From a virus: a stretch of 20,961 nt of DNA. Position numbers and translations under genes: made by a program. The notes beneath the pieces were generated by a model, which searched no databases, was not told where the DNA came from, and was given only the letters and a program-made list of their open reading frames with translations. Of the stretch, positions 2,523-12,115 are shown piece by piece; the first letter of the stretch is position 1, and the number at the start of each line of letters is the position of its first letter. The stretch spans positions 1 to 20,961 of the IMG/VR virus record IMGVR_UViG_3300042392_000392; one strand, given 5' to 3'.

Positions 2523-2631
2523 TAAATTTCCTTTCGTTGAGCAAGAGAATGAACTGTAAACGCTTTTTTTCAACAAAAACATAGGTGTTTACCCCTAGTG
2601 ACTTTTCACTTTTTTTTGTTAGGCTCACCGT
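2523..2631. promoter_or_regulatory. Divergent early control region
   Basis: This is the only gap from which transcription leaves in both directions: leftward to the recombination operon and rightward to the replication operon. It is AT-rich, with long T- and A-runs and the operator-like dyad at its centre. A second GTAAAC half-site at 2556-2561 is inverted relative to the GTTTAC at 2587-2592. A leftward -35-like TTGAAA lies at about 2566-2571, but no convincing -10 can be named for either side. Promoter activity is inferred from gene orientation. Confidence 0.6.
2582..2597. promoter_or_regulatory. Operator-like dyad, copy 1
   Basis: TAGGTGTTTACCCCTA is an imperfect inverted repeat and one of about seven related sites in the window. 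Its first 13 bases are identical to the copy at 11147-11162. It lies midway between two divergent operons, where one bound protein could control both. Confidence 0.6.
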
Positions 2632-2823
2632 ATGAGCCACCAAACACATGAATTCGTTTTAGCCTACGAGCTAATCGTCCAAGCTACTGATCAACTGGAG
2701 CCTTTGCTGCATCCAGATGATTTAGAGGCTAGTATTGTTGCTGTTTTGGCAACTGCACTAGAGATTGCGAGCCAACGTCCACTCAAGGAATTACATGAAA
2801 TCTACGCTGCCAAGCCCGTTTGA
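2632..2823 (+). CDS. 63-aa hypothetical early protein
   Basis: First gene of the rightward early operon. The 63 residues look helical and acidic, with AYELIVQATDQLEPLLHPDD and then IVAVLATALEIASQRPLKEL, and no recognisable domain. Codon use and amphipathic helices look natural. The ribosome site is weak (TTAGGCT about 10 bases upstream of the ATG), but no better start exists. It overlaps the following small ORF by 29 bases. Function is unknown; it could be a small dimeric regulator. Confidence 0.55.
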   Translation: MSHQTHEFVLAYELIVQATDQLEPLLHPDDLEASIVAVLATALEIASQRPLKELHEIYAAKPV

Positions 2824-2947
2824 TTGGAAGATCAAGCCAGCTACACTGTTTACCAAGACAGAGAAGTCCAACATGAACTCGTTCACTGTCGCCAAGACTC
2901 TTGAACGCAGAGAAATGAAGATCTATTCCAAAGCTGGAATAAAGTGA
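2795..2947 (+). CDS. 50-aa hypothetical protein
   Basis: A short ORF starting at ATG 2795 with AAGGAA five bases upstream. A longer in-frame start at 2765 has no ribosome site. The 50-residue product starts MKSTLPSPFDWKIKPATLFT and ends with a basic stretch (ERREMKIYSKAGIK). It overlaps the previous gene by 29 bases and fills otherwise empty DNA before the structured leader of the DUF1376 gene. No domain is recognised. It could be a spurious ORF, but the good ribosome site and the position argue for a real small early gene. Confidence 0.45.
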   Translation: MKSTLPSPFDWKIKPATLFTKTEKSNMNSFTVAKTLERREMKIYSKAGIK

Positions 2948-2964
2948 TATAGTAGTTTGAAACA

Positions 2965-3043
2965 CGGCTAGGTCGGGATTGATCCCCTGACCGAAAAGGG
3001 CACTCCCCCCCTGCCGCTTGTTTCTTTCAGGGAGTTTGCGGAG
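2965..3043 (+). promoter_or_regulatory. Structured leader upstream of the replication initiator-like gene
   Basis: A GC-rich leader in AT-rich surroundings. CGGC (2965-2968) can pair with GCCG (3013-3016) and enclose two hairpins: GGTC-GGGA with loop TTGA closed by TCCC-CT-GACC (2971-2992), and GGG-CACT-CCC (2998-3007). Alternatively CCGC (3014-3017) can pair with GCGG (3038-3041), which would bury the GGAG ribosome site of the gene at 3052. Two exclusive pairings of one strand suggest translational control. The pairings are visible; any regulatory effect is inferred. Confidence 0.4.
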
Positions 3044-3051
3044 ATGCTTCA

Positions 3052-3780
3052 ATGCACTACTACCAGTTTCATATTGGCGACTACGCTAGTCACACTCGTC
3101 ATCTTTCCTTGATCGAAGACATTGCTTACCGTAGGCTTCTGGACTTCTATTACCTCCATGAACAACCTATCAGACAGAGAGACATTGCTCGTCAGATAGG
3201 CATGAGAGATCAAGAGCAGGACGTTCTTACGGTCCTTAATGAGTTCTTTGTCTCCACTGATGCTGGCTTTGTTTCTCCAAGGGCAGACAAAGAAATACAA
3301 CATTACCACTCAAAAGTTGAGCAAGCGTCTAAGGCCGGTAAAGCATCCGCTGAACGCAGGTCCAACGTCCGTTCAACGGATGTTCAACCAACCAATAACC
3401 ATAAACCAATAACCATAAACCAAGAACCAATAACCAATAACCATAAACCAAAGAGAGAGAGCGCAACTTGCGTTGCTTGCCCTCTTGATGTTTCTGAACA
3501 GGTTTGGCAAGACTGGCTGGCACTCCGCAAATCAAAGAAGGCTGCTGTCACTGCAACCGTTCTTGAAGGTGCTAGGAAAGAAGCGTTCAAGCTTGATTGG
3601 CCATTGGAGAAGTTTTTAGCTGAATGGTGTACCCGTGGAAGCCAAGGCCTGAAGGCTGAATGGGTAAAGCCAGACCAACAAAGCATGAGCAAAACTGGCC
3701 TGATGAATCAGAAGGTGATTTCAGGTCTTACCCGTGGTCTTATTGGAGGTGACAACAATGTCCAACTACTTGGAAACTGA
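3052..3780 (+). CDS. DUF1376 replication initiator-like protein
   Basis: A 242-residue protein. The N-terminal ~90 residues match DUF1376 (YdaU-like): MHYYQFHIGDYASHTRHLSL, then AYRRLLDFYYLHEQP, and a winged-helix-like part (RQRDIARQIGM) ending near ADKEIQHYHSK. These proteins occupy the place of lambda O in many prophages and are thought to start replication. Residues about 113-134 are an Asn/Pro/Thr linker encoded by a 7-bp DNA repeat array. The C-terminal domain holds SEQVWQDWLALRKSKKAAVT and a KLDWPLEKFLAEWCTRGSQGLKAEWV segment typical of replication-protein C-termini. The ribosome site GGAG is 8 bases upstream. The next gene overlaps its end and may encode the helicase-loading partner. 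Confidence 0.82.
   Translation: MHYYQFHIGDYASHTRHLSLIEDIAYRRLLDFYYLHEQPIRQRDIARQIGMRDQEQDVLTVLNEFFVSTDAGFVSPRADKEIQHYHSKVEQASKAGKASAERRSNVRSTDVQPTNNHKPITINQEPITNNHKPKRESATCVACPLDVSEQVWQDWLALRKSKKAAVTATVLEGARKEAFKLDWPLEKFLAEWCTRGSQGLKAEWVKPDQQSMSKTGLMNQKVISGLTRGLIGGDNNVQLLGN
3390..3452 (+). repeat. Nine tandem 7-bp repeats inside the initiator-like gene
   Basis: Nine consecutive 7-bp units of the form AACCAWW (AACCAAT, AACCATA, AACCAAG, AACCAAA) fill exactly 63 bp. Because 7 is not a multiple of 3, the encoded peptide repeats every seven residues (PTNNHKP, ITINQEP, ITNNHKP). AT-rich tandem units within an initiator gene recall the lambda origin inside gene O. It could also be only a flexible linker that expands by slippage. 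Confidence 0.8.
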
Positions 3781-4144
3781 TTTCTGCACAGCAGATGATG
3801 GTCTTGATTACATTTTTGGCCGCATGATGGCAATCTTTGGATCTTCTTTTGCCAGACATTTTGAAGGTGTCGATCCTGGTCTTGTACGACAAGAGTGGAA
3901 AATTCAACTTGGTAGATTCTTGACATACAGACCAAGCATGGACTTTGCGATCAACAGCTTAGACGGGAACTTTGTTCCGAACGCCATCAAGTTTCGAAAC
4001 CTTTGCAACGCTGGCCCCAACATTCCTACTAAGCCCGTGCCTCAGATAACAAGGCAGCGCACACAAGCCGAAATAGAAGCAACTGAAATTGCTAAAGCAA
4101 AAGCCAAGGCTTTGTTGGCTGAACTTAAAAGAAATCTAGCATGA
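3758..4144 (+). CDS. Phage replication accessory protein, possible helicase loader
   Basis: A 128-residue protein starting at ATG 3758, which has an excellent GGAGGTGA site; the in-frame ATG at 3734 is poorer. It begins MSNYLETDFCTADDGLDYIF and has a conserved-looking core RMMAIFGSSFARHFEGVD, VRQEWKIQLGRFLTYRP and FVPNAIKFRNLCNAGPNIP, then a basic, Ala/Lys-rich helical tail. The pattern is familiar next to DUF1376 genes in proteobacterial phages, where lambda carries its helicase loader P. It is therefore a candidate loader or primosome component. No Walker motif is present, so it is not a DnaC-type ATPase. Its start overlaps the end of the initiator gene by 23 bases and its stop overlaps the next start (ATGA). 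Confidence 0.65.
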   Translation: MSNYLETDFCTADDGLDYIFGRMMAIFGSSFARHFEGVDPGLVRQEWKIQLGRFLTYRPSMDFAINSLDGNFVPNAIKFRNLCNAGPNIPTKPVPQITRQRTQAEIEATEIAKAKAKALLAELKRNLA

Positions 4145-4368
4145 ACTATGAACAAGCAACCAGAATCCTTGACCGAACCCAAGAAGGCTGGGAATTTAGC
4201 GAATTTGTCATCCTCCGAGCTCTTGAGCTTACGGGAGACTATGAACCAAGCGGAAGCTCGGGAATGGATTCAACGATACAAAAAGAGAATTCTGGAACAT
4301 GGGAGAGGCGAAGCCTTCAACTGGTGGCAGAACACACTGGCAGACATAACCAAACGGCGCGGAGTTAA
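4141..4368 (+). CDS. Hypothetical protein; overlaps the next gene in another frame
   Basis: The ATG at 4141 overlaps the upstream stop as ATGA. The first ~36 residues, MNYEQATRILDRTQEGWEFS followed by EFVILRALELTGDYEP, look like genuine protein and resemble short phage proteins with a LTGD motif. After that the reading (SGSSGMDSTIQKENSGTWERR) looks like the out-of-frame shadow of the gene at 4241. The ribosome site is weak, but translational coupling could serve. Either this is a real short gene whose tail overlaps the next one, or it is the front half of one ancestral gene now split by a frameshift. The frame has a normal stop at 4366-4368. Confidence 0.45.
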   Translation: MNYEQATRILDRTQEGWEFSEFVILRALELTGDYEPSGSSGMDSTIQKENSGTWERRSLQLVAEHTGRHNQTARS

Positions 4369-4423
4369 ATCAGCAGAGGATTTACGCCGCCGAATGAATA
4401 ATGAAAAAGAAATCAATGATTAA
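4241..4423 (+). CDS. 60-aa hypothetical phage protein
   Basis: The protein-like part of this frame starts at ATG 4241, with GGGAG five bases upstream: MNQAEAREWIQRYKKRILEH, then GRGEAFNWWQNTLADITKRRGVKSAEDLRRRMN. The frame is open back to ATG 4148, but residues from that stretch (NKQPESLTEPKKAGNLANLSS) look like the shadow of the overlapping gene at 4141. The WW and basic C-terminus are typical of small phage replication-region proteins, but no function is known. It precedes RusA by 15 bases. If the true start is 4148, the protein is 91 residues. Confidence 0.6.
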   Translation: MNQAEAREWIQRYKKRILEHGRGEAFNWWQNTLADITKRRGVKSAEDLRRRMNNEKEIND

Positions 4424-4438
4424 TATTGGAGACAATAA

Positions 4439-4867
4439 ATGACTTTTTGTGTGACGTTCCAAGTTGAAGCAACACCCGTAGGCAAAGGTAGGCCCAAGTT
4501 CGCCAGGAGAGGAAACTTTGTTTCTGCTTACACCCCTACCAAAACCCGAGACTACGAAGATCTGATTCGAGATGCTGCCAAACAAGCAATGGGAAGCTCT
4601 GTTCCGCTAAAAACGGCTGTAGCGGCTTATATCTACATCACAGTACCTATCCCTCAGTCTTACTCAAAGAGGCGCTTTAAGGACTGTTTAGAGGGCTTGG
4701 AGAGGCCATGCAAGAAGCCAGACATCGACAACATCATAAAAGCCTACTTAGATGCCATGAATGACATCGTTTATGACGATGACACCCAGGTTGTTTCCTT
4801 GCACAGCACAAAGGTTTATGGGACGGTGGGTCTGGTTGAAGTGTTGGTTAAAGAAGACATTGACTAA
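4439..4867 (+). CDS. rusA: RusA-family Holliday junction resolvase
   Basis: A 142-residue protein with clear RusA features. The early KGRPK (16-20) is a family hallmark. The catalytic stretch KPDIDNIIKAYLDAMNDIVY (93-112) supplies Asp95, Asp97 and Lys101, and the following DDDTQV supplies Asp114, matching the essential Asp/Asp/Lys/Asp set of E. coli RusA. The enzyme cuts four-way DNA junctions as a dimer; in phages it resolves recombination intermediates and debranches DNA before packaging. GGAG is 7 bases upstream of the ATG. It complements the ERF annealing protein encoded across the divergent promoter. Length is close to the usual ~120-140 residues. Confidence 0.9.
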   Translation: MTFCVTFQVEATPVGKGRPKFARRGNFVSAYTPTKTRDYEDLIRDAAKQAMGSSVPLKTAVAAYIYITVPIPQSYSKRRFKDCLEGLERPCKKPDIDNIIKAYLDAMNDIVYDDDTQVVSLHSTKVYGTVGLVEVLVKEDID

Positions 4868-4937
4868 GGGTAAGTCCCTATACAAAAACAAATAAACCAA
4901 ATGCAGAATTGGTTTTCCAATTAACAACTCAATTGAT

Positions 4938-5261
4938 ATGACTTACACAAAATTTGCATCAGCAACCAACATTTTTACTGGAGAACCACAAGCTCGGTTC
5001 GTGCCAATCCCTGATGTTCCCAGAAAGAAAAAAGGAACAACCCTGCATGATGATAAGTTTGACAAGCTAATTGGCTTTGATACAGCACTTGTTGTCCATG
5101 AGAACGATATGGGTGGAATGCGTAAGTCACTGCAACGCTACTTGAGAAACAAAGAGATGTCTCAGAAGGCATCTATGCGACAACTCAAGGACCACAAAAC
5201 CAAAAGCTACACGATCTGGTTGGTAAACGAGCCACCACAATACCTAAGGAGCAAGCAATGA
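4938..5261 (+). CDS. 107-aa hypothetical protein
   Basis: A charged 107-residue protein of unknown family. It begins MTYTKFASATNIFTGEPQAR, has KKKGTTLHDDKFDKLIGFDTALVV, a helix GGMRKSLQRYLRNKEMSQKASM, and ends with a conserved-looking KSYTIWLVNEPPQYLRSKQ. The basic helical centre could bind nucleic acid. The 70-base gap before it holds a perfect hairpin AATTGG-TTTT-CCAATT (4907-4922) and a weak operator-like dyad at 4865-4880. No ribosome site is visible before the ATG. The stop overlaps the next start as ATGA, so this gene opens the long chain of coupled small genes running to 8635. Confidence 0.6.
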   Translation: MTYTKFASATNIFTGEPQARFVPIPDVPRKKKGTTLHDDKFDKLIGFDTALVVHENDMGGMRKSLQRYLRNKEMSQKASMRQLKDHKTKSYTIWLVNEPPQYLRSKQ

Positions 5262-5398
5262 CCCCTTTGTACGACCTTTTGAAATGGCTGTTCGCCCGTG
5301 TACGCCCTGCGCCTGCGGATGAGCACTGCCCCTACTGCCACGGCCTTGGCTATGACAGCAGCGGATGGACTTGCACTTGCTTGAGGGAGAAGAAATGA
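5258..5398 (+). CDS. 46-aa zinc-finger-like protein
   Basis: A 46-residue protein joined to both neighbours by ATGA overlaps (5258-5261 and 5395-5398). AAGGAG lies 9 bases upstream of the ATG. The N-terminus is hydrophobic then basic (MTPLYDLLKWLFARVRPAP). The C-terminus carries CPYCHGLGYDSSGWTCTCL, a CxxC plus CxC arrangement resembling a DnaJ-type or small zinc-ribbon knuckle, with a CxGxG-like HGLGY. Function is unknown; adaptor or nucleic-acid contact is possible. The exact stop-start coupling on both sides makes it a convincing small gene. Confidence 0.65.
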   Translation: MTPLYDLLKWLFARVRPAPADEHCPYCHGLGYDSSGWTCTCLREKK

Positions 5399-6105
5399 CG
5401 ACGCAATTGGTTCGAGACTCCATGAAGCTGATGTCTGATGCTGGCGTAGATATTGTGGACATCAAGTGGTTCGACCTGACTGGAGCATTCTCAGAGCATA
5501 AACATGCCAACCTTGAGCCTGTGATGACGCATCGCCCACCATTTGACAAATGCTTTGTCACTTGGAGGGGAAAGACTCGCAGCCACCCGAGCTACGAGGT
5601 CTTGATGTTGGTAGCTGGGACAGAGCCAGACGAGGGCATCACTGTGTCAATGTGGAAGGGGCCAAGCGGTACAAGGTTACGCCCCATCCCCGCGATGTTT
5701 TACTTCATAGAGGATAACAATATCCGTTATGGCGCAGTCAGTGATGAAGAGCCTGTAGACAAGGAGTTGGCAGAGATCATGCTGGCGCAGATTGGGGTTT
5801 GGTACAGCGCCATGGATGAGCGCATTGAGGCTTACATTCCATCGGTCCGAGATACCTTCACAAATCGACGCAAGGTACAGCAGGGCAAGCTGCCGACCTA
5901 CGACTGGACAACGGTTTGGATTGAGCCAGCCAAGCCCCGCCAAGACCCCAAAGGGGGCACACACGCATCACCCCGCCTGCACGACCGCCGTGGTCATTTG
6001 AGGCGGCTTGCAAGCGGAAAGAATGTTTGGGTCAAGTCCTGCAAAGTGGGTGACGCCAGCAAAGGTGTGATATTTCACGACTACGCCATCAAGGAGAACG
6101 CATGA
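5395..6105 (+). CDS. Conserved phage protein with C-terminal RRGH motif
   Basis: A 236-residue protein starting at ATG 5395 (GAGGGAGA upstream, ATGA overlap); the in-frame ATG at 5365 would overlap the previous gene further. The first ~150 residues are globular with no motif I can name (DIVDIKWFDLTG, MTHRPPFDKCFVTW, LRPIPAMFYFIEDN). The end holds a compact motif, GGTHASPRLHDRRGHLRRL, followed by SGKNVWVKSCKVGDASKGVIFHDY. I recall this His/Arg-rich ending (HxxPRxHxRRGHxR...VxxxxVG) from many phage and mobile-element proteins, at the C-terminus of otherwise unlike proteins; its function is unknown. The motif's His and Arg residues could contact nucleic acid or form an active site. ATGA overlap with the next gene. 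Confidence 0.65.
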   Translation: MTTQLVRDSMKLMSDAGVDIVDIKWFDLTGAFSEHKHANLEPVMTHRPPFDKCFVTWRGKTRSHPSYEVLMLVAGTEPDEGITVSMWKGPSGTRLRPIPAMFYFIEDNNIRYGAVSDEEPVDKELAEIMLAQIGVWYSAMDERIEAYIPSVRDTFTNRRKVQQGKLPTYDWTTVWIEPAKPRQDPKGGTHASPRLHDRRGHLRRLASGKNVWVKSCKVGDASKGVIFHDYAIKENA

Positions 6106-6605
6106 CCAAAGACGAAGCACTCGACTTGGCGCTGGAGACGTTGAGATCAGCGGCAGGTGAACTATACAGAGTCACCTCGTACTGCGATACATATGACGCA
6201 CTTGCCAAAACAAACAATGCAATTATTGATATTCAGCAAGCCCGTTCAGCACCTGTGCAGAAACGCCCACAGAACTGCGGAACAGGCTATTGCAGTTGCG
6301 TTGAATGCGTGATGGAGCCAGCACCTGTGCAGGAGCCTATTGGCTACTTGTTCCAGCATGAAGAAAATGGACTGACTATGGTTTTCGATGTTCAGCAGGT
6401 TGAGTGGGGTTTTAAAAAGAACAACCCACGGCATCAAAAGATTGGCCCCGTCTACACCACCCCACCCGCAGCACAGCGGCAATGGGTTGGGCTGACGGAT
6501 GAGGAGATCGAAAAAGCCTGTGTTCCGCTTGGTGCGGCAATGCTGTCTTTTACAGAAGTCGCCCGAGCCATCGAAGCCAAATTAAGGAGCAAGAACAATG
6601 GATGA
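6102..6605 (+). CDS. Ea22-like modular repeat protein 1
   Basis: A 167-residue mosaic. The N-terminus (DEALDLALETLRSAAGELYR) is a helical segment. The middle is a Cys-rich insert (NCGTGYCSCVECVME) flanked by APVQ units, then EPIGYLFQHEENG..., closed by VYTTPPAAQ. The C-terminus RQWVGLTDEEIEKACVPLG...ARAIEAKLRSKN is a unit often seen at the end of such proteins. The EPVAW...PLYTTPP layout recalls the lambda ea22-type early proteins, whose function is unknown. Its APVQEP coding DNA is nearly identical to copies in the gene at 6693, including a 69-bp block. Joined to the previous gene by ATGA and overlapped by the small membrane-protein gene at 6598. Confidence 0.6.
   Translation: MTKDEALDLALETLRSAAGELYRVTSYCDTYDALAKTNNAIIDIQQARSAPVQKRPQNCGTGYCSCVECVMEPAPVQEPIGYLFQHEENGLTMVFDVQQVEWGFKKNNPRHQKIGPVYTTPPAAQRQWVGLTDEEIEKACVPLGAAMLSFTEVARAIEAKLRSKNNG
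6270..6338 (+). repeat. 69-bp duplicated block, copy A
   Basis: Encodes NCGTGYCSCVECVMEPAPVQ and matches the block at 6954-7022 at 63 of 69 positions by eye; the last 42 bases are identical. The two lie in different genes, so this is a recent duplication or gene-conversion tract. Confidence 0.8.
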
Positions 6606-6696
6606 ATGGACTTTAATTTTGTGTTTTCTGTCTGGGATGTTTGTTGGGCAACACATAACAATTTCATACATCCGAGCCAGAGGAGGAGCCAAATGA
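6598..6696 (+). CDS. 32-aa single-pass membrane protein
   Basis: A 32-codon ORF between the two repeat-protein genes. AAGGAG lies nine bases upstream of the ATG at 6598, and the TGA at 6694-6696 overlaps the next ATG as ATGA. The product starts MDEWTLILCFLSGMFVGQHI and ends with a basic tail (SYIRARGGAK), a classic short helix with positive charges at the C-terminal side, so the N-terminus probably faces out. It overlaps the end of the upstream gene by 8 bases. Function unknown; many phages encode such small membrane proteins (superinfection exclusion, lysis inhibition), but nothing here distinguishes these. Confidence 0.6.
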   Translation: MDEWTLILCFLSGMFVGQHITISYIRARGGAK

Positions 6697-7457
6697 GAGA
6701 CACGATAGACATGGCCCGTGAGGCTGGCTACGGCGAACACTTGTCGATGCTTCATGCGGTTGCGCTAAACCGCTTTGCTGAACTTGTTCGTGCTGATGAG
6801 CGTGCCCTTGCAGCACCTGTGCAGGAGCCTGTAGCAGAGTATCGCGGCGTTACCAATGATGGTCACTACATCATTAAGCCAATGCAGCCACTCAAAATCG
6901 GCGCACTGTTTTGCGCCACCCCACCCGCAGCACAGCCAGCACAAAAGAAACCGCAGAATTGCGGCACAAGCTATTGCTCATGCGTTGAATGCGTGATGGA
7001 GCCAGCACCTGTGCAGGAGCCTGTGGCGTGGCTTTATAAGGGTGATGCGGAGTTTGATGGTAAAGAATGGCGCGACAATATTCGTGTTACTACATCAAAG
7101 CAAGTTGCTGATTGGCAGGGGAAAGACATTCAACCCCTCTACACCACCCCACCCGCGCAGCCAGCGCCCGTGTGCATTGGATGGGATACCAAGGCCGACA
7201 CACCAATCATAGGGTACACCACCCCACCCACATCACCTGTGCAGGAGCCTGTGGCGTGGCTTGTTGAATTTGAAAACGGAGAACAAGAATTACATTTTGA
7301 CGAGCAATCGGTCGGTGAAATTCATACGCCCCTTTACACCACCCCACCCGCACAGCCAGCACCTGTGCAGGAATTGACCAACATTCAGCGCCACGAGCAA
7401 AACGTGGAGAAGTTTTTGGCAGCACGGCCAACACCTGTGCAGGAGAAGAACACATGA
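6693..7457 (+). CDS. Ea22-like modular repeat protein 2
   Basis: A 254-residue protein. I start it at ATG 6693, which has a strong AGGAGGAG site and the ATGA overlap, not at 6606 (out of the small gene's frame and without a ribosome site). After an N-terminal helix (TIDMAREAGYGEHLSMLHAV) come tandem modules: APVQEPVAEYRG...ATPPAAQ; a Cys-rich insert with NCGTSYCSCVECVME; APVQEPVAWLYKG...QPLYTTPPAQPAPV; SPVQEPVAWLVEF...TPLYTTPPAQPAPVQE; and an ending with PTPVQEKNT. Each module has a unique body between near-identical joints. The general EPVAW/PLYT pattern is known from phage ea22-like proteins of unknown function. The last repeat also provides the AGGAG ribosome site of the next gene. Confidence 0.6.
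   Translation: MRDTIDMAREAGYGEHLSMLHAVALNRFAELVRADERALAAPVQEPVAEYRGVTNDGHYIIKPMQPLKIGALFCATPPAAQPAQKKPQNCGTSYCSCVECVMEPAPVQEPVAWLYKGDAEFDGKEWRDNIRVTTSKQVADWQGKDIQPLYTTPPAQPAPVCIGWDTKADTPIIGYTTPPTSPVQEPVAWLVEFENGEQELHFDEQSVGEIHTPLYTTPPAQPAPVQELTNIQRHEQNVEKFLAARPTPVQEKNT
6954..7022 (+). repeat. 69-bp duplicated block, copy B
   Basis: Second copy of the block at 6270-6338, here inside the gene at 6693. Six mismatches, all in the first 27 bases; the remaining 42 bases are identical to copy A. Confidence 0.8.
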
Positions 7458-7642
7458 AAAAAGAAATTAAAGCATGGGCCATCAAGTTGAGAAAACGTAA
7501 TTTTTACCAAAATGTTGACGGCCATCTGTTTCTTTACTCAACCAAAAGCAATGCATCAACAGTGGCAATGAGGATCAGACACTGGGAAGAGATAAGCGCA
7601 GAGCCTGTCCGAGTCAGAGTCCGTATTGAAGAGATCGTATGA
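7454..7642 (+). CDS. 62-aa basic hypothetical protein
   Basis: A 62-residue basic protein (KAWAIKLRKRNFYQNVDGHL, then STKSNASTVAMRIRHWEEIS, ending EPVRVRVRIEEIV). It looks like an alpha/beta mini-domain with a C-terminal strand and is familiar as a small conserved phage protein, but no function is known. The ATG at 7454 forms an ATGA overlap with the repeat-protein gene; its AGGAG site (7441-7445) is part of the final CACCTGTGCAGGAG repeat. ATGA overlap also with the next gene at 7639-7642. Confidence 0.65.
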   Translation: MKKEIKAWAIKLRKRNFYQNVDGHLFLYSTKSNASTVAMRIRHWEEISAEPVRVRVRIEEIV

Positions 7643-8130
7643 AAAAGAAAAGTAAATACAAACCCCGTGGTGTTCGTTTTGACAACTTGTCTTGGATCGT
7701 TGCTGGATTTAAAAAAGTAGGTACTCTTCCTACTGCTGGTGTAGCACTCAAACTGAAGAACCATGAAGCCCTTGATTCAATCTTAATGGGCCAAGGAACA
7801 AGATCACACGTTGATGTGCTGATTGCTGCTGTCAACATGAGTGAAGCATTTATCTGTGTAAGAGATGAGTTAGGTTTAGATTGGAAAACAGAGATTAAAG
7901 CAGCCCAGGATGCTATTTACACAATGAGTAAACGAGGCTTTGAGAAAAACAGCTTTGTCTTTACTGGCCCAGAGATGAAAGCCGTAAAGCTAGTTATGGA
8001 TTTGCATGATGCACAGCTAGATGATTGCACTGTCCGAGAAATGGAGCAAGCCCTGTTCATTGTTGAAGAACATATCAGGATGAAGAAGGCTAGACCAATC
8101 ATCAAACAGGAAGAAGTAAATGAAGCGTGA
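7639..8130 (+). CDS. 163-aa conserved phage hypothetical protein
   Basis: A 163-residue helical protein with a basic start (KKKSKYKPRGVRFDNLSWIV), LKLKNHEALDSILMGQGTR, a long helix VLIAAVNMSEAFICVRDELG, and FTGPEMKAVKLVMDLHDAQL near the end. I recognise the KSKYKPR start and the NHEAL...GxxTR block as a recurring proteobacterial phage protein near replication genes, without a known role. It contains no catalytic motif that I can see. ATGA overlap with the gene before; the methyltransferase gene starts 11 bases before its stop, so the two are probably coupled. Confidence 0.6.
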   Translation: MKKKSKYKPRGVRFDNLSWIVAGFKKVGTLPTAGVALKLKNHEALDSILMGQGTRSHVDVLIAAVNMSEAFICVRDELGLDWKTEIKAAQDAIYTMSKRGFEKNSFVFTGPEMKAVKLVMDLHDAQLDDCTVREMEQALFIVEEHIRMKKARPIIKQEEVNEA

Positions 8131-8635
8131 ACTATTAATTGGCTGTGGCTCATATCACACCAAACTGATGGCATCTGATGGAACTAACGAGTGGTCCAGC
8201 TTAACAACCTTGGACTACAACGCAGACCACAAACCAGATGTGTGCTGGGACTTGATGAACCTGCCATTGCCTTTTGGTGATGGAGAGTTTGATGAAATCC
8301 ATGCCTATGAAGTGCTGGAGCATCTTGGCCAACAAGGTGACTACAAACTGTTCTTTGCTCAGTTCTCAGAATTCTGGCGACTGCTTAAACCAAACGGTCA
8401 TTTCCTTGCGACTTGCCCATCAAGAAACTCAGTGTGGGCTTTGGGTGACCCAAGCCATACAAGGATCATGCAGCTAGAGCAACTGGTATTTTTATCTCAA
8501 GCTGAGTACAAGAGGCAAGTAGGCAAAACACCTATGTCTGATTTTCGCAACATTTATAAGGCAGACTTTGAAACTGTCTACCAAGAAGACGATGGAGAGA
8601 TCATCAGGTTTGTGCTGAAAGCTATAAAGAATTGA
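8120..8635 (+). CDS. SAM-dependent methyltransferase (class I)
   Basis: A 171-residue class I (Rossmann) methyltransferase. LLIGCGS (5-11) is the glycine-rich SAM loop; LDYNADHKPDVCWDLMNLPL carries the acidic residue after strand 2 and the second Asp; FGDGEFDEIHAYEVLEHLGQ is the post-motif-II region typical of Methyltransf_11-type enzymes; WRLLKPNGHFLATCPS is the late conserved strand. No DPPY/NPPY motif is present, so a DNA adenine or N4-cytosine methylase is unlikely. The acceptor is unknown; such phage enzymes may modify a small molecule, sugar or protein. AGGAAGT lies upstream of the ATG, which overlaps the previous gene by 11 bases. Confidence 0.8.
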   Translation: MKRELLIGCGSYHTKLMASDGTNEWSSLTTLDYNADHKPDVCWDLMNLPLPFGDGEFDEIHAYEVLEHLGQQGDYKLFFAQFSEFWRLLKPNGHFLATCPSRNSVWALGDPSHTRIMQLEQLVFLSQAEYKRQVGKTPMSDFRNIYKADFETVYQEDDGEIIRFVLKAIKN

Positions 8636-8645
8636 TTTTGTAGCT

Positions 8646-8651
8646 TATAAT
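8646..8651 (+). promoter_or_regulatory. -10 box giving a possibly leaderless transcript
   Basis: A consensus TATAAT ends 7 bases before the ATG at 8659, so transcription would start at or next to the start codon. No ribosome site precedes that ATG. No good -35 is found at 16-18 bases. Confidence 0.35.
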
Positions 8652-8658
8652 TCAAGCC

Positions 8659-8991
8659 ATGAAACAACGTGGCGGCACAAGAAAAGGCGCTGGTCGAAAG
8701 AAGATCAGTGAGGAGGGCAGGACTATCCGAGCAAGGGTAGCCCCTGTCCACGAACAAGCATTGATGCTGGCAGGGAACGGTTCTTTGTCAGAAGGCATTC
8801 GTAGATTAGCTGAGAAGCACTGGAGACTGATTCATGGAGAGCCAGATAAACCCAAACAAAGCCATTCAGTATTTGATAGATACCGCACCCTTGTACGCCC
8901 AAGCGAAAGCAAACCGAATGTACCTGGAGGAAATGCGGAAGTCGGTCAAAGCAAAGCTGATGAAGGGTTGCCAAGAGTCAGTGCTGGGTAA
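8659..8991 (+). CDS. Small basic GGxRKGAGR protein, putative DNA-binding
   Basis: A 110-residue ORF. The start MKQRGGTRKGAGRKKISEEG is a well-known N-terminus of short phage/plasmid proteins, usually followed by a ribbon-helix-helix or HTH-like part; here that part is TIRARVAPVHEQALMLAGNGSLSEGIRRLAEKHW, which fits ribbon-helix-helix (strand RARV, then two helices). The C-terminal 50 residues (HSVFDRYRTLVRPSESKPN...) overlap another real gene in a different frame and look like low-quality sequence. The likely function is DNA binding, possibly local regulation. No ribosome site precedes the ATG; translation could be leaderless from the TATAAT at 8646. Confidence 0.6.
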   Translation: MKQRGGTRKGAGRKKISEEGRTIRARVAPVHEQALMLAGNGSLSEGIRRLAEKHWRLIHGEPDKPKQSHSVFDRYRTLVRPSESKPNVPGGNAEVGQSKADEGLPRVSAG

Positions 8992-9166
8992 GCAAGAGAT
9001 CTACGCCTATGCTCACCCTGACTACATAGAGATCCTTGAGGGCATCAAGGTGTCTGTTGAGCAAGAAGAGAACTACCGCTGGATGATGACTGCTGCCCAA
9101 GCCAGGATTGAGGTGTGGAAAACCACTCAATATTCAGCCCGTATGGAAGTTAGAGCTACCCAATGA
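8834..9166 (+). CDS. 110-aa hypothetical protein
   Basis: A 110-residue helical protein: INPNKAIQYLIDTAPLYAQA, then KANRMYLEEMRKSVKAKLMK, KQEIYAYAHPDYIEILEGIK, VEQEENYRWMMTAAQARIEV. The pattern (charged helix, YAYAHPDY, W near the end) is typical of a conserved phage protein found near HNH or RusA genes; its function is unknown. GGAG is 8 bases upstream of the ATG. It overlaps the previous gene by 158 bases in another frame, which is unusually long. The stop overlaps the HNH gene start as ATGA. Confidence 0.65.
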   Translation: MESQINPNKAIQYLIDTAPLYAQAKANRMYLEEMRKSVKAKLMKGCQESVLGKQEIYAYAHPDYIEILEGIKVSVEQEENYRWMMTAAQARIEVWKTTQYSARMEVRATQ

Positions 9167-9426
9167 ACAACAAGTTAAACAAAGAAGAGCGCATCCATTT
9201 GGCAAACATCAAGCAGCTACCCTGCTCAGTATGTGACGCACCTGGACCCAGTGAAGCCCATCACTATAAACAAGGGCTTCAATATACCTGTATTGCATTA
9301 TGTGTTGAATGCCATAGAGGTCCAATATTAGGATGGCATGGTCAAAAGAGAATGTGGGCTATTAAGAAAATGGATGAAATTGACGCATTAAATAATACTT
9401 ATAAAAACCTATTCAAAATCATCTGA
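9163..9426 (+). CDS. HNH/Ref-like small zinc nuclease
   Basis: An 87-residue protein with two zinc-type cysteine pairs framing a His motif: CSVCDAPGPSEAHHYKQG (Cys21, Cys24, His33-His34) and ALCVECHRG (Cys47, Cys50, His51), followed by GWHGQKRMWAIKKM. This is the layout of the small phage HNH proteins related to P1 Ref (RecA-dependent nuclease) and DUF968. Such enzymes cut DNA in recombination, or help terminase cut at packaging starts. Which applies here is unknown. It is the last gene of the rightward early operon; the terminase genes lie 2.2 kb downstream, separated by the counter-oriented cassette. Confidence 0.75.
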   Translation: MNNKLNKEERIHLANIKQLPCSVCDAPGPSEAHHYKQGLQYTCIALCVECHRGPILGWHGQKRMWAIKKMDEIDALNNTYKNLFKII

Positions 9427-9491
9427 ATTTAAAAGCATATTGGAATATCAAAAGTTTCAAAAACTTTGAGTTTCTAAAAATTGGTTAAATC

Positions 9492-9530
9492 GTGTTTGTA
9501 AAAAGTAAATGCGACTTTTTTTAAAAACAC
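9492..9530. terminator. AT-rich inverted repeat, possible terminator
   Basis: GTGTTT (9492-9497) pairs with AAACAC (9525-9530), and AAAAAGT (9500-9506) pairs with ACTTTTT (9514-9520) around the loop AAATGCG. It lies 66 bases after the HNH gene. The stem is AT-rich and followed by mixed sequence, so termination would be weak. Confidence 0.35.
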
Positions 9531-9548
9531 CCTGTTTTGATCCCCCGA

Positions 9549-9565
9549 TTAGGGTTTACCCTTAG
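9549..9565. promoter_or_regulatory. Operator-like dyad, copy 2
   Basis: TTAGGGTTTACCCTTAG contains the full GGGTTTACCC core. It is the only copy not near a gene start; it lies between two converging operons. Confidence 0.6.
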
Positions 9566-9621
9566 TTTTGCGGAGTGGGCGCTCACTTCACCTGAAAACC
9601 CAGCAGCGCATGAGACACTAG

Positions 9622-9643
9622 CGACAATGCCCCGACAATGCCC
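9622..9643 (+). repeat. 11-bp perfect tandem repeat
   Basis: CGACAATGCCC occurs twice without a gap (9622-9632 and 9633-9643), immediately upstream of a bidirectional hairpin. Confidence 0.8.
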
Positions 9644-9645
9644 TT

Positions 9646-9670
9646 AAAAAGCCCTTGTAGGCCTCTTTTT
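9646..9670. terminator. Possible bidirectional terminator
   Basis: AAAAA-GCC, a CTTGTA loop, GGC, a CTC bulge and TTTTT form a short hairpin bounded by A- and T-runs, so each strand has a stem followed by Ts. It suits a gap between converging operons. The GC stem is only 3 bp. Confidence 0.4.
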
Positions 9671-9768
9671 GTGCTGGTGCATACCTACTATGCCAAAACC
9701 CAGAAAATCGATTGTAGGTCCGTTAAATCGATGCGCTTGGAGTGAGTGCTTACTAACTTAACAACCCC

Positions 9769-9791
9769 AAAAAAACCCCAGCGAACCGGGG
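9769..9791 (-). terminator. Rho-independent terminator of the leftward cassette
   Basis: On the minus strand CCCC(9791-9788)-GGTTCGCT-GGGG(9779-9776) is followed by seven Ts (9775-9769). It begins 19 bases after the stop of the 56-aa gene and is correctly oriented to end the counter-oriented cassette. Confidence 0.75.
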
Positions 9792-9809
9792 AGTCTTTGA
9801 GCTTGTCAG

Positions 9810-9980
9810 TTATGCCATGGGCCAAAAGTCCTTTTTATCAATGGTCACCCAGCAACATGGGGGGTCATCGAATCGAATGCTGCAAAGCAAGTTAGACCCT
9901 TTGACCCTTTGAATGATGTACATCGGGGAATTGTCGTTTGTCAGGTCAACCCCGAAAGAACCCTTTTTTGCTTCATGCAT
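9810..9980 (-). CDS. 56-aa hypothetical protein
   Basis: A 56-residue protein starting at ATG 9980, with AGGGG six bases upstream; the start overlaps the end of the DUF7227-like gene by 8 bases. It begins MHEAKKGSFGVDLTNDNSPM, continues YIIQRVKGSNLLCSIRFDD and ends PPCCWVTIDKKDFWPMA, a compact beta-rich mini-protein with a Cys-Cys pair. Family and function are unknown. The coupling, good ribosome site and a terminator 19 bases beyond the stop make a real gene likely. It contains the tandem GACCCTTT-GACCCTTT on the plus strand (about 9895-9910). Confidence 0.6.
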   Translation of the reverse strand: MHEAKKGSFGVDLTNDNSPMYIIQRVKGSNLLCSIRFDDPPCCWVTIDKKDFWPMA

Positions 9981-10740
9981 AGTGAACCCCTAAGATCTGG
10001 GTGAACCCTGATGTATCTTTTTTGGCTTTCCCTTTGGCGTACAAAGCCACTACAACCCGCTTGGGTTCGATATGCCTTACATCCGTATTGTCTCCATCGA
10101 TCACACTCCATCCCCTAAAACTGACAGGGATATCCTGCTGTTTTTGGAAAACGACAGCAACCCGTGAATTATTCGGGTTCTGCAACCCTTTGATAGTGAT
10201 GGGCTTTGGAGTGATAGCGGAAAACGAATAGGTCAAATCATAGTTATCGGCTGTTTTTCCTGTCAGATTCCTGCCTGGATGTTTTGTATAGTCATAAAAC
10301 TGTACATCAGGGAATAACTGAAACAGGTTTTTGCCATCATGCACAATCAAATTCTCATAAGGGATGTCTGATGTCCCATTAGGTCTAACCAAAGGGTTAA
10401 AACCCTGTTTTTTGGCTTTTCTTTCAATAGACCAAACATCAGCAGCAAGTGACAGCAAAAAGGCCTGTTGATTGTCATAGTAAAACCGGGTTTTGCTGAT
10501 GCGCGCCTGTTGTACAGAATTGAAAGCCCCTCTACCTGCTGACTCCAAACAACCAAACATACAACCCGCTGATCGGGCCATAGAGCAAATTTTGTGATCG
10601 GGTTTAAGGTAGACGATTCCTGTTAAGTAACCGATCTTTTCACCTTTGATTGTCTTAGCTGATGATTCACCCAGGATGGTTTTGTAAGGCAAGCCTAATG
10701 ATGCCAGGATGGTTTTGTACGGGTTTTTCATGTTGTTCAT
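9973..10740 (-). CDS. DUF7227-like phage protein with cysteine cluster
   Basis: A 255-residue protein. The recognisable block is KGEKIGYLTGIVYLKPDHKI, then ICSMARSAGCMFGCLESAGRGAF, NSVQQARISKTRFYY and a helix AFLLSLAADVWSIERKAKKQG; this is the pattern I recall for the phage family DUF7227. Cys52, Cys60 and Cys64 (CX7CX3C) next to an invariant-looking AGRG could hold an iron-sulphur cluster or zinc. Later parts are VQFYDYTKHPGRNLTGKTAD and a Gly/Lys-rich end with VVVALYAKGKAKK. The biochemical role is unknown. The N-terminus carries an 11-residue tandem duplication (PYKTIL...PYKTIL). Start could be ATG 10740 or 10731; neither has a clear ribosome site. It is the main gene of the leftward cassette. 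Confidence 0.65.
   Translation of the reverse strand: MNNMKNPYKTILASLGLPYKTILGESSAKTIKGEKIGYLTGIVYLKPDHKICSMARSAGCMFGCLESAGRGAFNSVQQARISKTRFYYDNQQAFLLSLAADVWSIERKAKKQGFNPLVRPNGTSDIPYENLIVHDGKNLFQLFPDVQFYDYTKHPGRNLTGKTADNYDLTYSFSAITPKPITIKGLQNPNNSRVAVVFQKQQDIPVSFRGWSVIDGDNTDVRHIEPKRVVVALYAKGKAKKDTSGFTQILGVHYA
10671..10719 (-). repeat. 16-bp direct repeat at the start of the DUF7227-like gene
   Basis: CCAGGATGGTTTTGTA occurs at 10671-10686 and 10704-10719, spaced 33 bp apart, exactly 11 codons. It encodes the doubled PYKTIL near the N-terminus and looks like a recent in-frame tandem duplication. Confidence 0.8.
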
Positions 10741-10763
10741 TTCGTGAATATATTAAAAAATGA

Positions 10764-10859
10764 TTACTTTACAAGAATGTCAAAGTAAGAGAGGGCCAAA
10801 ACGCAAAGGATCAAGCCCAATGCAATGGCCGTGAGGATATCTTTGATCTTGTCATTCAT
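10764..10859 (-). CDS. 31-aa single-pass membrane protein
   Basis: A 31-residue protein, missed by usual length cutoffs. AGGAGA lies 7 bases upstream of the ATG at 10859, and its start overlaps the stop of the preceding gene by 8 bases. The charged N-terminus (MNDKIKD) is followed by an uninterrupted hydrophobic helix of about 20 residues (ILTAIALGLILCVLALSYF) and a short DILVK tail. This is a typical small phage inner-membrane protein. Role unknown; membrane takeover or exclusion functions are possible. Confidence 0.65.
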   Translation of the reverse strand: MNDKIKDILTAIALGLILCVLALSYFDILVK

Positions 10860-11058
10860 GAATGTCTCCTGAGTATGCGCGTTCTGCTTCCATTGACAGT
10901 GCTGTCAAGGTTTGCTTGTCAAGGATGCCTGAAACGTCAACCCCGTCAAACCAGACAGCCGTTAAACGATCAAGCCATGAAGGGATGGAGATGTCTAGCT
11001 CAACGTCAATGATGCCGCCATTGAGTAGGGTTGCATATCGGTGAATAGTGTCTTGCAT
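10852..11058 (-). CDS. 68-aa hypothetical protein
   Basis: First gene of the leftward cassette. The 68 residues contain a strand-rich middle (IIDVELDISIPSWLDRLTAV) and WFDGVDVSGILDKQTLTALS, then a helix MEAERAYSG. It resembles small phage proteins with a VxxGVDVTxxL motif, which have no known function. A perfect TTGACA lies on the minus strand at 11135-11130, about 70 bases upstream of the ATG, with only a poor -10, and an operator-like dyad lies directly upstream of that. The ribosome site is weak (AAGGCAGC). The stop is overlapped by the membrane-protein start. Confidence 0.6.
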   Translation of the reverse strand: MQDTIHRYATLLNGGIIDVELDISIPSWLDRLTAVWFDGVDVSGILDKQTLTALSMEAERAYSGDIHE

Positions 11059-11146
11059 GATGCTGCCTTTAAAGTTTCGTTAGTTGCAGTGATCAAAGCA
11101 TTGCGCCTTGATGTATCAATTATCGGGTCTGTCAACCATAAATCTA

Positions 11147-11162
11147 TAGGTGTTTACCCTAA
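11147..11162. promoter_or_regulatory. Operator-like dyad, copy 3
   Basis: TAGGTGTTTACCCTAA shares its first 13 bases with the copy at 2582. A second GTTTAC follows at 11163-11168. It lies 12 bases upstream of the leftward TTGACA box, the place for a regulator of the counter-oriented cassette. Confidence 0.6.
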
Positions 11163-11393
11163 GTTTACGATTGATTTTGTAGCTACAGTAGGAATCCCGA
11201 AACACCAACAACCCAAAGCCATGGGCATCTATTCATGTAGGGATAGATACAAGGATAGATAGAGGGTCTACAGAGGGAGAGCATAGAGGGAGAGTAAGGA
11301 TTCCAGCGCATAGACATACATCAGCAAAGAAACCATTAGCAACCCCACGAACACCAACCAACCTAACTCCATCGCGCACCCGAGACCAATGCG

Positions 11394-11412
11394 AATGCGA
11401 ATCATTCTCATT
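11394..11412. promoter_or_regulatory. Fur-box-like dyad
   Basis: AATGCGAAT-C-ATTCTCATT is a 19-bp dyad with arms matching at 8 of 9 positions. The overlapping 11391-11409 matches 14 of 19 positions of the classical Fur consensus. It lies 12 bases before the first dyad of the operator cluster. Chance similarity remains possible. Confidence 0.4.
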
Positions 11413-11423
11413 TAGATTTGGCC

Positions 11424-11514
11424 TAGGGTTTACCCCTAAGGGTTTATACCTAGGGGTTTACCCTGGTACTGGATGGACGTACAGGACTGTGGATGCGTAC
11501 AGTAGGGTTTACCC
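11424..11514. promoter_or_regulatory. Cluster of four operator-like dyads upstream of terminase
   Basis: Four related sites lie in 91 bp: TAGGGTTTACCCCTA (11424-11438), AAGGGTTTATACCTAGG (11438-11454, with two extra bases), TAGGGGTTTACCCTGG (11451-11466) and TAGGGTTTACCC (11503-11514). The first three abut or overlap, as operator arrays or iterons do. The arms TAGGGT and ACCCTA are exact reverse complements. About 150 bp separate the cluster from the terminase start. Confidence 0.7.
11471..11502 (+). repeat. Direct repeat within the operator cluster
   Basis: GGATGGACGTACAG (11471-11484) is repeated as GGATGCGTACAG (11491-11502) with a 2-base deletion. The start-to-start distance is 20 bp, about two helical turns. 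It lies between the third and fourth dyads. Confidence 0.65.
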
Positions 11515-11665
11515 CCCCCTTGAGTAAAACAGGGGTGCGCTCTGGAACAGGTACATCTTCACAGATCAATCTACGAAATCAGCAACAAAACAAACCTCTT
11601 TCCAAAAAAAAATTTTATTTCAAAATGGGATTAGAATTTGTAGACACCAAATCAAAGGAGAGAAC

Positions 11666-12115
11666 ATGGCTGGATATCCTATGCGTAGGGCGTTGGAGAA
11701 GAAGATTGAGGAGATGGGGGGGATAGAGTTTGTATGTGCTCATGTAGCGCAGGGGATGACGCTTAATCGGTTGGCTGAGTTCATTGAGTGTTCTAGGCCT
11801 ATGCTTTCTTTTTGGATCAACCATACGGAAGAGCGCAGGGTTGCGGTGTTGAATGCTCGTAAGTTGAAGGCTGAGAAGTTGGCTGAAGAGGCTTTGGAGA
11901 TTGCTGACGAGGTGGATGAGAGCAGTAACTCGGGGGTTAATAAAGCGAGGCTCCAGGTGGATACTCGTAAGTGGTTAGCTGGTAAGCTGGACCCGGAGGC
12001 TTATGGGGATACTGCCAAGACCCAAGTGAATATCAGTATGGGTGATTTACACCTTCAGGCTTTGAAGCATATGGGTAAGGTTGAGGTGGTTACTACATTG
12101 GAAAACAATGAATAA
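11666..12115 (+). CDS. terS: Terminase small subunit (Sf6-like)
   Basis: A 149-residue protein with an N-terminal helix-turn-helix (HVAQGMTLNRLAEFIECSRP, then MLSFWINHTEER), a helical oligomerisation part LKAEKLAEEALEIADEVDES, and the well-conserved ARLQVDTRKWLAGKLDPEAYGD ending of Sf6-type small terminases. The subunit recognises the packaging site on phage DNA and feeds the motor subunit. AAAGGAG stands 7 bases before the ATG. Guanine-rich codons in the first part (GGGGGGATAG) suggest codon use unlike the early genes. The next gene overlaps its end by 8 bases. The repeat-rich DNA immediately upstream is a natural candidate for its binding site. Confidence 0.87.
   Translation: MAGYPMRRALEKKIEEMGGIEFVCAHVAQGMTLNRLAEFIECSRPMLSFWINHTEERRVAVLNARKLKAEKLAEEALEIADEVDESSNSGVNKARLQVDTRKWLAGKLDPEAYGDTAKTQVNISMGDLHLQALKHMGKVEVVTTLENNE

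Follow-up and report, generated by a model that had tools for sequence, protein, structure and literature searches.

A directional 17-bp motif beside putative promoters and ahead of terminase genes in uncultured phages

What reads a short, dyad-like sequence that recurs at several places in the non-coding DNA of an uncultured phage? The question is raised by the IMG/VR record IMGVR_UViG_3300042392_000392, of which a stretch of 20,961 nt, here called the window, was analysed at its full length. The first-pass annotation listed seven such sites, and all were found at the places given (Table 1): six are strong and one, at 11438-11454 (AAGGGTTTATACCTAGG), is degenerate and carries an additional base. 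All are on the + strand, with none on the - strand. Re-reading of the window places GTGTTTACC at 2585 and 11150 (+), and GGGTTTACC at 9552, 11426, 11454 and 11505 (+). The exact 14-mer TAGGGTTTACCCTA is matched by none of the window sites; at up to 3 mismatches it has 6 matches, which represent five places with the 9550 site counted on both strands, compared to a mean of 0.79 and a maximum of 4 in 100 shuffled sequences. Stripped of its flanks, GTTTACC is also found in coding DNA, at 2848 and 5222. The proposed confinement to non-coding DNA holds when short mechanical ORFs are ignored; three sites lie inside such ORFs, none with support as a gene, namely site A (80 aa, - strand, 2407-2649), site C (73 aa, + strand, 11041-11262) and the last array site (77 aa, 11493-11726).

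Table 1. Motif sites, proposed promoter elements and relevant genes in the window
Feature	Position	Strand	Remarks
Proposed weak -35, TGTTTT, leftward early promoter	2576..2581	-	By inspection; similar layout in L249
Site A, TAGGTGTTTACCCCTA	2582..2597	+	Between two divergent early operons; fully matches virome consensus
Proposed weak -35, GTGACT, rightward early promoter	2598..2603	+	Proposed from the letters
Candidate binder, 110-aa RHH-like protein of early operon	8659..8991	+	
Site B, TTAGGGTTTACCCTTA	9549..9564	+	Convergent gap 3' of early operon
Second 16-bp dyad of site B block, AAGTGAGCGCTCACTT type	9573..9588		
Proposed leftward cassette promoter	11119..11146	-	-35 TAGATT (11141-11146), 16 nt, -10 GATAAT (11119-11124); putative
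Site C, TAGGTGTTTACCCTAA	11147..11162	+	Head of leftward gp88 cassette
Fur-box-like sequence, AATGCGAATCATTCTCATT	11394..11412		Beside array
Array site D1, CTAGGGTTTACCCCTA	11423..11438	+	
Array degenerate copy, GGGTTTATACC core	11438..11454	+	Similar GGGTTTCTACC copies in relatives
Array site D2, TAGGGGTTTACCCTGG	11451..11466	+	
Last array site D3, GGGTTTACCC	11502..11517	+	Runs into C tract, then G-rich block
Terminase small subunit, Sf6 type (PF20901)	11666..12115	+	First gene past array
Terminase large subunit	12108..13502	+	Start picked by inspection within ORF 12081-13502

The consensus of the motif is a directional 16-17-mer, TAGGKGTTTACCCYTAG, with a constrained centre, and not the perfect TAGGGT/ACCCTA dyad around a 2-base centre that had been suggested from the window. 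Even the bases that the consensus pattern leaves unspecified are biased (T/G 94 of 105, T/C 94 of 105). Of the non-coding 10-mers in 159 related loci, GGGTTTACCC is the one that occurs in most loci, with 268 non-coding versus 25 coding matches, or 8.85 versus 0.19 per 10 kb, so that equal density in coding DNA can be dismissed. When the arms of GGGTTTACCC are kept and the centre is altered (GGGTATACCC, GGGTTAACCC, GGGTTCACCC and GGGTCTACCC), the same loci contain 0, 2, 0 and 0 non-coding matches, and the near neighbour GGGTTTTCCC has 25; the near absence of other centres indicates that the TT/AA centre is important, rather than a spacer of any two bases. At the place of site B, relatives have either TT or AA as the centre, at the same position, which favours a DNA dyad over a signal on one strand. 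The site B block holds a second dyad, of the AAGTGAGCGCTCACTT type; of 80 terminase-set loci, 38 have it when 2 mismatches are allowed (none for the reversed control), and the copy in the window was picked up when 3 were allowed. Chance or base composition as the source of the motif is ruled out by the shuffles, the non-coding enrichment, the biased bases and the reversed control. The sites form a real family and have the look of protein targets.

The 17-mer TAGGTGTTTACCCTTAG has at least 120 matches in viral contigs versus 5 for its reversed control. Nearly letter-for-letter copies are found in more than 100 other uncultured phages, often adjoining a gene switch and pointing towards the packaging genes. 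A full 17-mer match is found in none of 50,697 named phage records, and positions 9400-11700 of the window have no detected DNA similarity to named phages. Contig G440 carries ten sites, none of them in the selected ORFs (at least 60 aa); another, G456, has three sites within an ORF. The sole Rfam match is a sub-threshold int-alpA, located elsewhere, and a tRNA search found none. A translation-start reading, with ATG closing the reversed 17-mer and TAGGTGT in a ribosome-binding leader, was dropped on inspection. String searches of literature, as far as the accessible portions of the texts go, did not find the motif sequence as an operator, in agreement with the earlier statement that no described phage operator has such a sequence. 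The core GGGTTTACCC is contained in the REP palindrome of Pseudomonas putida GB-1, which differs from the motif in flanks and length and is a host chromosomal hairpin repeat (PMC2817692).

The location of the sites relative to promoters is conserved in relatives, as claimed, at the divergent early promoter, at the promoter of the leftward cassette and ahead of terminase. To score spacing, -35 boxes within one mismatch of TTGACA were counted as distinct sequences for 216 sites. On the first side, the offset from motif centre to box peaks at 8 (16 boxes) and 19 (9 boxes), compared to a mean of 1.40 per offset, with offsets 35 (7) and 29 (6) also high; on the other side, the count of 5 at offset 8 is barely above six offsets with 4 (mean 1.00). 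A recognisable -35 box at a preferred offset is seen in a minority of sites, and most sites are without one. In the window, the boxes are weak matches, found by looking. Both proposed early promoters have the -35 at 8 nt from the centre of site A, with -10 sequences TACAGT at 2553-2558 (leftward, where the -35 starts at that distance) and TAGGCT at 2620-2625 (rightward). The proposed cassette promoter is likewise 8 nt from the centre of site C, in the same frame as in L005, L010 and L216, and by inspection several of the G440 sites abut a -35-like hexamer at this same offset. Site B has no promoter at the preferred spacing.

We consider it probable (roughly 0.6) that TAGGKGTTTACCCYTAG is the operator of a dimeric transcription factor that activates early and cassette promoters, and that the array on the terminase side is a multi-site target. 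Such a sequence-specific factor, we infer, would bind the motif in a broad group of uncultured phages, sitting just upstream of the -35 box, centred near -44 or, when it lies another helical turn out, near -55, and most likely activating rather than repressing the weak promoters. Within the window it would act on both early promoters that diverge from site A and, at site C, on the promoter of the leftward gp88 cassette. The tandem copies ahead of terminase would be bound by the same factor, probably coupling late expression or packaging to its level. Operators of activators or repressors beside -35 boxes are well known from lambda CI at PRM and from class II sites of CRP. The motif resembles these in being a 14-17 bp dyad that occurs as single and tandem sites and at divergent promoters, with a centre near -44 and a second preference one helical turn away; it differs in being common to different kinds of phages and in having a direction fixed relative to the terminase genes.

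A single common control protein is suggested by the motif. The first-pass proposal of one DNA-binding protein fits the promoter geometry on one hand; on the other, no phage protein common to all motif-bearing phages was found, including among the 30 commonest protein clusters of 19 large contigs, counted as motif-bearing although one of them, G462, lacks a site under the regular expression applied. The commonest cluster is present in 12 of these 19, and the 30 represent, as named by look, terminase, structural, lysis, DNA-metabolism and unknown proteins. Two of the three proteins first put forward, at 891 and 2367, are rejected as universal binders, being missing from several motif-bearing genomes. 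The third, at 8659, is the only one to have gained support: it may belong to a family whose presumed members lie directly behind the site in other phages, with a weak link to the window protein (E = 0.011, reached in round 2 of a profile test not seeded with that protein, after no match in round 1). This RHH-like family is the best phage candidate for the binder, at about one chance in four. In all 17 members of its cluster (cluster 9) the gene follows the site immediately, and it is the commonest first gene on that side of the site; relatives have variant dyads in the corresponding promoter position, and the motif centre is flipped in some RHH promoters. Of 114 unique family genes, 20 have the exact consensus in the 330 nt ahead of them, and 76 have at least 5 mismatches. 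In the window, the gene and the motif sites are apart; in G425 the gene is present and the motif absent from the 20 kb examined, and L246 has a variant dyad before the same gene. Of the 55 gp88-set loci with an RHH-like member outside the window type, 22 are without the motif, and matches to the RHH-like profile are found in 26 of 207 fragments. A profile comparison of two RHH-like subfamilies gave a probability of 18% (P = 0.0013).

RHH repressors of the MetJ/Arc/CopG kind are small strand-helix-helix proteins with tandem-site operators. The candidate is similar in its size and strand-helix-helix-like sequence, in the position of its gene behind a presumed operator and in the tandem-site arrays, and differs in that its family has no Pfam match, no clear PHROG match and no structural relative found among solved structures (PDB; Foldseek, VIA-align), and in being undetected in most large motif-bearing contigs (members in 2 of 34). 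Overall confidence is low in the AlphaFold2 models of the RHH-like proteins (mean pLDDT 64 and 74), with two helices of high local pLDDT and no strand assigned.

On the terminase side, the array is kept in 64 of the 66 related loci that reach far enough to include it, which bears out the expected conservation in place. Its end carries GGGTTTACCCCC in 64 of 66 loci, the exceptions being L057 and L077, and 62 loci have a G-run pattern within 60 nt. Site direction is nearly uniform, at 188 of 189 in the scanned stretch, and the motif points towards the small-subunit gene in 28 of 28, 22 of 22 and 10 of 12 cases and towards the large-subunit gene in 20 of 20 and 30 of 33. Three types of terminase are preceded by the motif; their small subunits, in types 2 and 3 so named by position only, have no mutual BLAST similarity. 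An array devoted to one TerS family is therefore rejected, and a specific small subunit as sole binder is unlikely.

Arrays bound by TerS at cos or pac sites are familiar from the lambda R sites and from Sf6-type TerS, and like them the direct repeats here are shortly upstream of terS and adjoin a conserved block. The array could be read by TerS as a signal for packaging or for a terminus (pac, cos or the edge of a direct terminal repeat), with the isolated sites secondary. The fixed C tract that closes the array before terS and the uniform direction would suit this, as would the phage phiM5 (TerL 55% identical), where the left copy of 357-bp terminal repeats ends just before terL. Types 1 and 3 have related large subunits (30% identity, E 2e-68), so that a common packaging mechanism is possible; types 2 and 3 have a weak likeness (E 1e-6). 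Moreover, 2 of 6 large contigs of the window's terminase type are opened at the array, and 9 contigs start at -400 to -620 versus about 3.4 expected (0.02 per 100 bp and contig). However, contig ends spread over many bases, C tracts may break assemblies, and the idea that the starts mark one cos base was dropped. The same directional sign before three dissimilar kinds of small subunit, and again at early promoters far away, makes a packaging signal quite unlikely. An origin of replication, with iterons accompanied by G-rich and A/T-rich tracts and possibly primed by a transcript near the site, we find improbable. It would account for the order of site, half-kilobase spacer (approximately), G-run block, A/T tract and small subunit seen in most of the examples inspected of the three terminase types; this order was read by eye, counted for neither type 2 nor type 3, and fits L089, L342 and L419 poorly, and the DUF1376 replication protein does not track the motif, being missing from several motif-bearing genomes. 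If the terminase transcript had a leader with UAGGG-UUUA-CCCUA hairpins, whose arms by inspection can pair around the UUUA loop, arrays in one direction would be explained. Against this, the centre is turned round at the place of site B and in a number of RHH promoters, and sites upstream of -35 boxes would not be transcribed from those promoters; an RNA element is highly improbable.

Alphaproteobacterial phages are said to use sites of a host regulator, CtrA. If the motif were likewise the site of a host regulator, of which phages of one host group carry a best-affinity copy as switch or decoy, the failure to find a common binder among the phages would be natural. Regulator sites in phage non-coding DNA are a point of likeness, and AATGCGAATCATTCTCATT beside the array is one letter off a published Fur-box consensus, AATGAgAATcATTctCATT (PMC1790865); SlmA-like dyads are found in the site B region. 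Yet in the genomes scanned the 17-mer is not found as a motif repeated along the chromosome: exact-match scans, with low power for degenerate sites, found the 16-mer unchanged in one genome among 398 of Pseudomonadota and in one among 399 from the order of G097, and AGGGTTTACCCT has at most 3 copies per genome in the 398; these genomes may not represent the host, which is perhaps of another phylum. We regard a host-regulator site as unlikely. In a tentative further reading, with the odds against it, one directional element, TAGGKGTTTACCCYTAG, common to phages whose small terminase subunits have no detectable likeness, would mark the border between a leftward early or cassette promoter and the rightward terminase operon. 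It would be read by one factor, either encoded by the host or a phage protein that evolves very fast, and the surrounding regions, with their Fur-box-like and SlmA-like sites, would be composite platforms for reading or titrating host regulators.

The operator reading remains the one we prefer. A 17-bp sign that recurs at least 120 times in stretches of viral contigs, with no full match among the named phage records, offers a handle on gene control in uncultured phages. It could help to locate early promoters and terminase regions from sequence, and it points to a small protein family without a Pfam entry as a testable candidate. It also raises the question of why different kinds of phages should have one switch in common.

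Six strong sites of one directional motif, and a degenerate copy at a seventh place, are found in the window. The first-pass annotation had described them as a family of 14-mer dyads confined to non-coding DNA. None of the six matches that 14-mer exactly; with up to three mismatches it has six matches in the window, against a mean of 0.79 in shuffled sequence. The confinement holds in the main: GGGTTTACCC, the most widely found non-coding 10-mer (99 of 159 loci, two duplicates being left out), has 268 non-coding and 25 coding matches, but three of the six strong sites lie within mechanical ORFs of 73-80 aa, which are not taken for genes. The arms of GGGTTTACCC with other centres are nearly absent from the same loci, and GGGTTTTCCC has 25 non-coding matches there.

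Motif sites in the window, by start of the core (strong sites, n = 6)
Site	Core start	Strand	Class	Location
A	2585	+	strong	
B	9552	+	strong	convergent gap
C	11150	+	strong	head of leftward gp88 cassette
D1	11426	+	strong	array upstream of terminase
degenerate copy	11438	+	degenerate	array upstream of terminase
D2	11454	+	strong	array upstream of terminase
D3	11505	+	strong	array upstream of terminase

The window is a virus contig of 20,961 bases from IMG/VR. Its leftward early block encodes a DUF3310 protein, a MazG-like protein, a 103-aa protein and an Erf-type annealing protein, and the rightward early operon a DUF1376/primosomal protein and others; a sub-threshold Rfam match to int-alpA RNA (31.4 bits, gathering threshold 35.8) precedes the DUF1376 gene at 2961-3032. 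The early operons are followed by the leftward cassette with gp88 and then by the two terminase genes, for a small subunit of Sf6 type (terS) and the large subunit, past which the genes are read as portal and capsid; capsid homologues were found.

The motif family proposed in the first-pass annotation is real and conserved. Relatives were collected with a terminase query (the best 80 of 425, at least 94% identity) and with a gp88 query (the best 80 of at least 586). Together with the window, 70 of the 81 terminase loci contain a site of the searched kind, and the other 11 are contigs that start 4 to 881 bases before the terminase match; in L022 and L033 the sole site match falls after it. Upstream sequence of 800 bases or more is available for 66 loci; 64 of these keep the last array site, GGGTTTACCCCC (exceptions L057 and L077), and 62 have a G-run pattern no more than 60 bases from it. 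The 700 bases scanned in these 66 loci hold 188 sites in one direction versus 1 in the opposite; ten loci show no site in this stretch: in nine the array sits at -1262 to -2065 instead, and L057 has no array. Place B is likewise a conserved block, whose centre is either TT or AA depending on the phage, and a second dyad stands behind it.

The motif is also more widespread than was supposed. TAGGNGTTTACCCNTA has at least 120 matches in the viral collection, with its free positions occupied, in 105 unique contexts, by T60/G34/C8/A3 and T75/C19/G6/A5, and G the commonest base after its last A (42 of 105). TAGGTGTTTACCCTTAG also has at least 120 matches, its reversed control 5 in all; at full length it occurs in none of 50,697 named phage records (the 24 listed match partly) and none of 72,556 plasmids (the 4 listed match partly). 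Under the regular expression used, eight of 19 large contigs have a single match; the contig G440 has ten sites. Among the literature matches listed for the exact strings GGGTTTACCC, AGGTGTTTACCC, GGGTAAACACC and GGGTAAACCC, no title concerns phage control, and a search on phage operators and terminase listed nothing on the motif by title. The core string, with other flanks, is part of a Pseudomonas putida REP palindrome (PMC2817692).

When ORFs within 3 kb of the sites were clustered in 207 loci, with no prior choice, the commonest clusters included three terminase types and one small protein; several other common clusters consist of unknown ORFs or of ORFs antisense to genes. Read along the strand of the site, the terminase genes come after it: the small subunit of the window's type 1 in 10/12 cases, type 2 in 28/28 (large subunit 30/33), and type 3 in 22/22 (large subunit 20/20). 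Types 2 and 3 were named, and their first genes called small subunits, from position and the look of the sequence. In the window, 516 bases separate site C from terS downstream of it, and type 2 and 3 sites are mostly similarly spaced (482-828 bases, one 1,208). The three small-subunit types have no BLAST similarity to one another; among the large subunits, types 1 and 3 are 30% identical, and types 2 and 3 weakly alike.

In most of the examples listed for the three types the order is site, spacer of about half a kilobase, G-run block, A/T tract, small subunit, with L089, L342 and L419 fitting poorly. This order would fit a packaging terminus, an origin or a long late leader equally. Contig ends bear on the first of these: of the six large contigs (36-46 kb) with the window's type, two, G004 and G005, have their ends between the array and the terminase genes, where contig starts are about 2.5-fold denser than 0.02 per 100 bp and contig, yet spread rather than at a single base. 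Because the small subunits are dissimilar, the site is unlikely to be the target of one TerS family, and the likeness of the large subunits leaves these odds unaltered, since the argument rests on the small ones. The two ends of L030 (G004; 35,955 bases) have 19 bases in common. G-run blocks of the GGGGGAGGGGG type and A/T tracts, seen at 11518-11550 and before terS in L407, L142 and L034, might fold into G-quadruplexes or serve as an R-loop origin.

The motif is most likely the operator of a putative transcription factor. Boxes resembling -35 elements, sought around 216 unique TAGGKGTTTACCC sites with one mismatch allowed and only distinct sequences counted, peak on one side at 8 (16 boxes) and 19 (9) bases from the centre, where the average offset has 1.40; the next offsets are 35 (7) and 29 (6). 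On the opposite side, offset 8 has 5 boxes, barely above six offsets with 4 (mean 1.00). In five strong cases (L120, L127, L133, L161, L181), TTGACA and TATAAT-like boxes stand directly beside the site. Weak -35-like hexamers lie 8 bases from the centre of site A on both sides and of site C on the cassette side, a frame that recurs for site C in L005, L010 and L216; these proposed window promoters were picked by inspection once the spacing rule had been seen. A promoter-like repeat, TTGATTTTGTAGC, occurs at 8632-8644, before the ribbon-helix-helix-like (RHH-like) gene, and at 11171-11183, behind site C. Of the 80 loci in the terminase set 41 have it, against none for the control; a related form precedes terS. 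The leftward cassettes of relatives carry a stereotyped leader, TTTAATAGGTGTNANNATG (L218 at 2949, L219 at 886, and others; 79 matches to its core), which looks like a ribosome-binding site.

One DNA-binding protein for all sites had been suggested, and here the evidence divides. The small protein of cluster 9, RHH-like, is encoded directly behind a site in 17/17 loci (median distance 88 bases), but a profile search detected no family member in 32 of 34 large motif-bearing contigs, nor in 181 of 207 motif fragments. G413 has site A and no member within the stretch examined, and the 30 commonest clusters of the 34 large contigs (19 chosen for the motif) include no evident DNA-binding protein common to motif carriers. 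The core of the window protein (8659-8991) aligns without gaps with cluster 9 proteins; a profile built without it finds it only in the second round (E = 0.011, 26,634 ORFs), below the KGAG-type proteins of L249, L376, L154, L189 and L092. In L092, L154 and L376 the 17-mer lies 253-305 bases from the KGAG-type gene. Within the wider family, 20 of 114 unique genes are preceded, at no more than 330 bases, by the exact consensus, and 76, including most window-type genes among the matches listed, have at least five mismatches at best. In many MxRP-type genes the place of the consensus is taken by a variant dyad, TTAGGACAAACCCTAA for example; for that subfamily, this is the pattern to be expected if the promoter is autoregulated and its operator drifts. 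The gp88 set was not selected for the motif; there the motif is present in 17/26 loci with an MxRP-type protein, 16/29 with other RHH-like members, 2/2 with the window type and 7/23 with none. The exact 16-mer occurs in only 1 of 398 Pseudomonadota genomes and in 1 of 399 from the order to which G097 belongs; exact matching misses degenerate sites, and the host may lie elsewhere.

Sequences resembling two other binding sites adjoin the motif. At place B the dyad resembles the SlmA site GTGAGTACTCAC (PMC3116907), and L066 and L070 have this 12-mer. Dyads GAGTGGGCGCTCACTT (9573-9588) and GTGAGTGCTTAC (9742-9753) look like the nucleoid-occlusion SlmA site, and such dyads stand as two successive copies in many relatives. 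Adjoining the array at 11394-11412, AATGCGAATCATTCTCATT is one letter off AATGAgAATcATTctCATT, the Fur-box consensus of Xanthomonas (PMC1790865). Within two mismatches it is found in 26/80, 20/80 and 26/207 loci of the three sets, and its reversed control in none. The Fur-box-like sequence stands beside the array and recurs in loci with other terminases, so this may be a region where host iron status is sensed.
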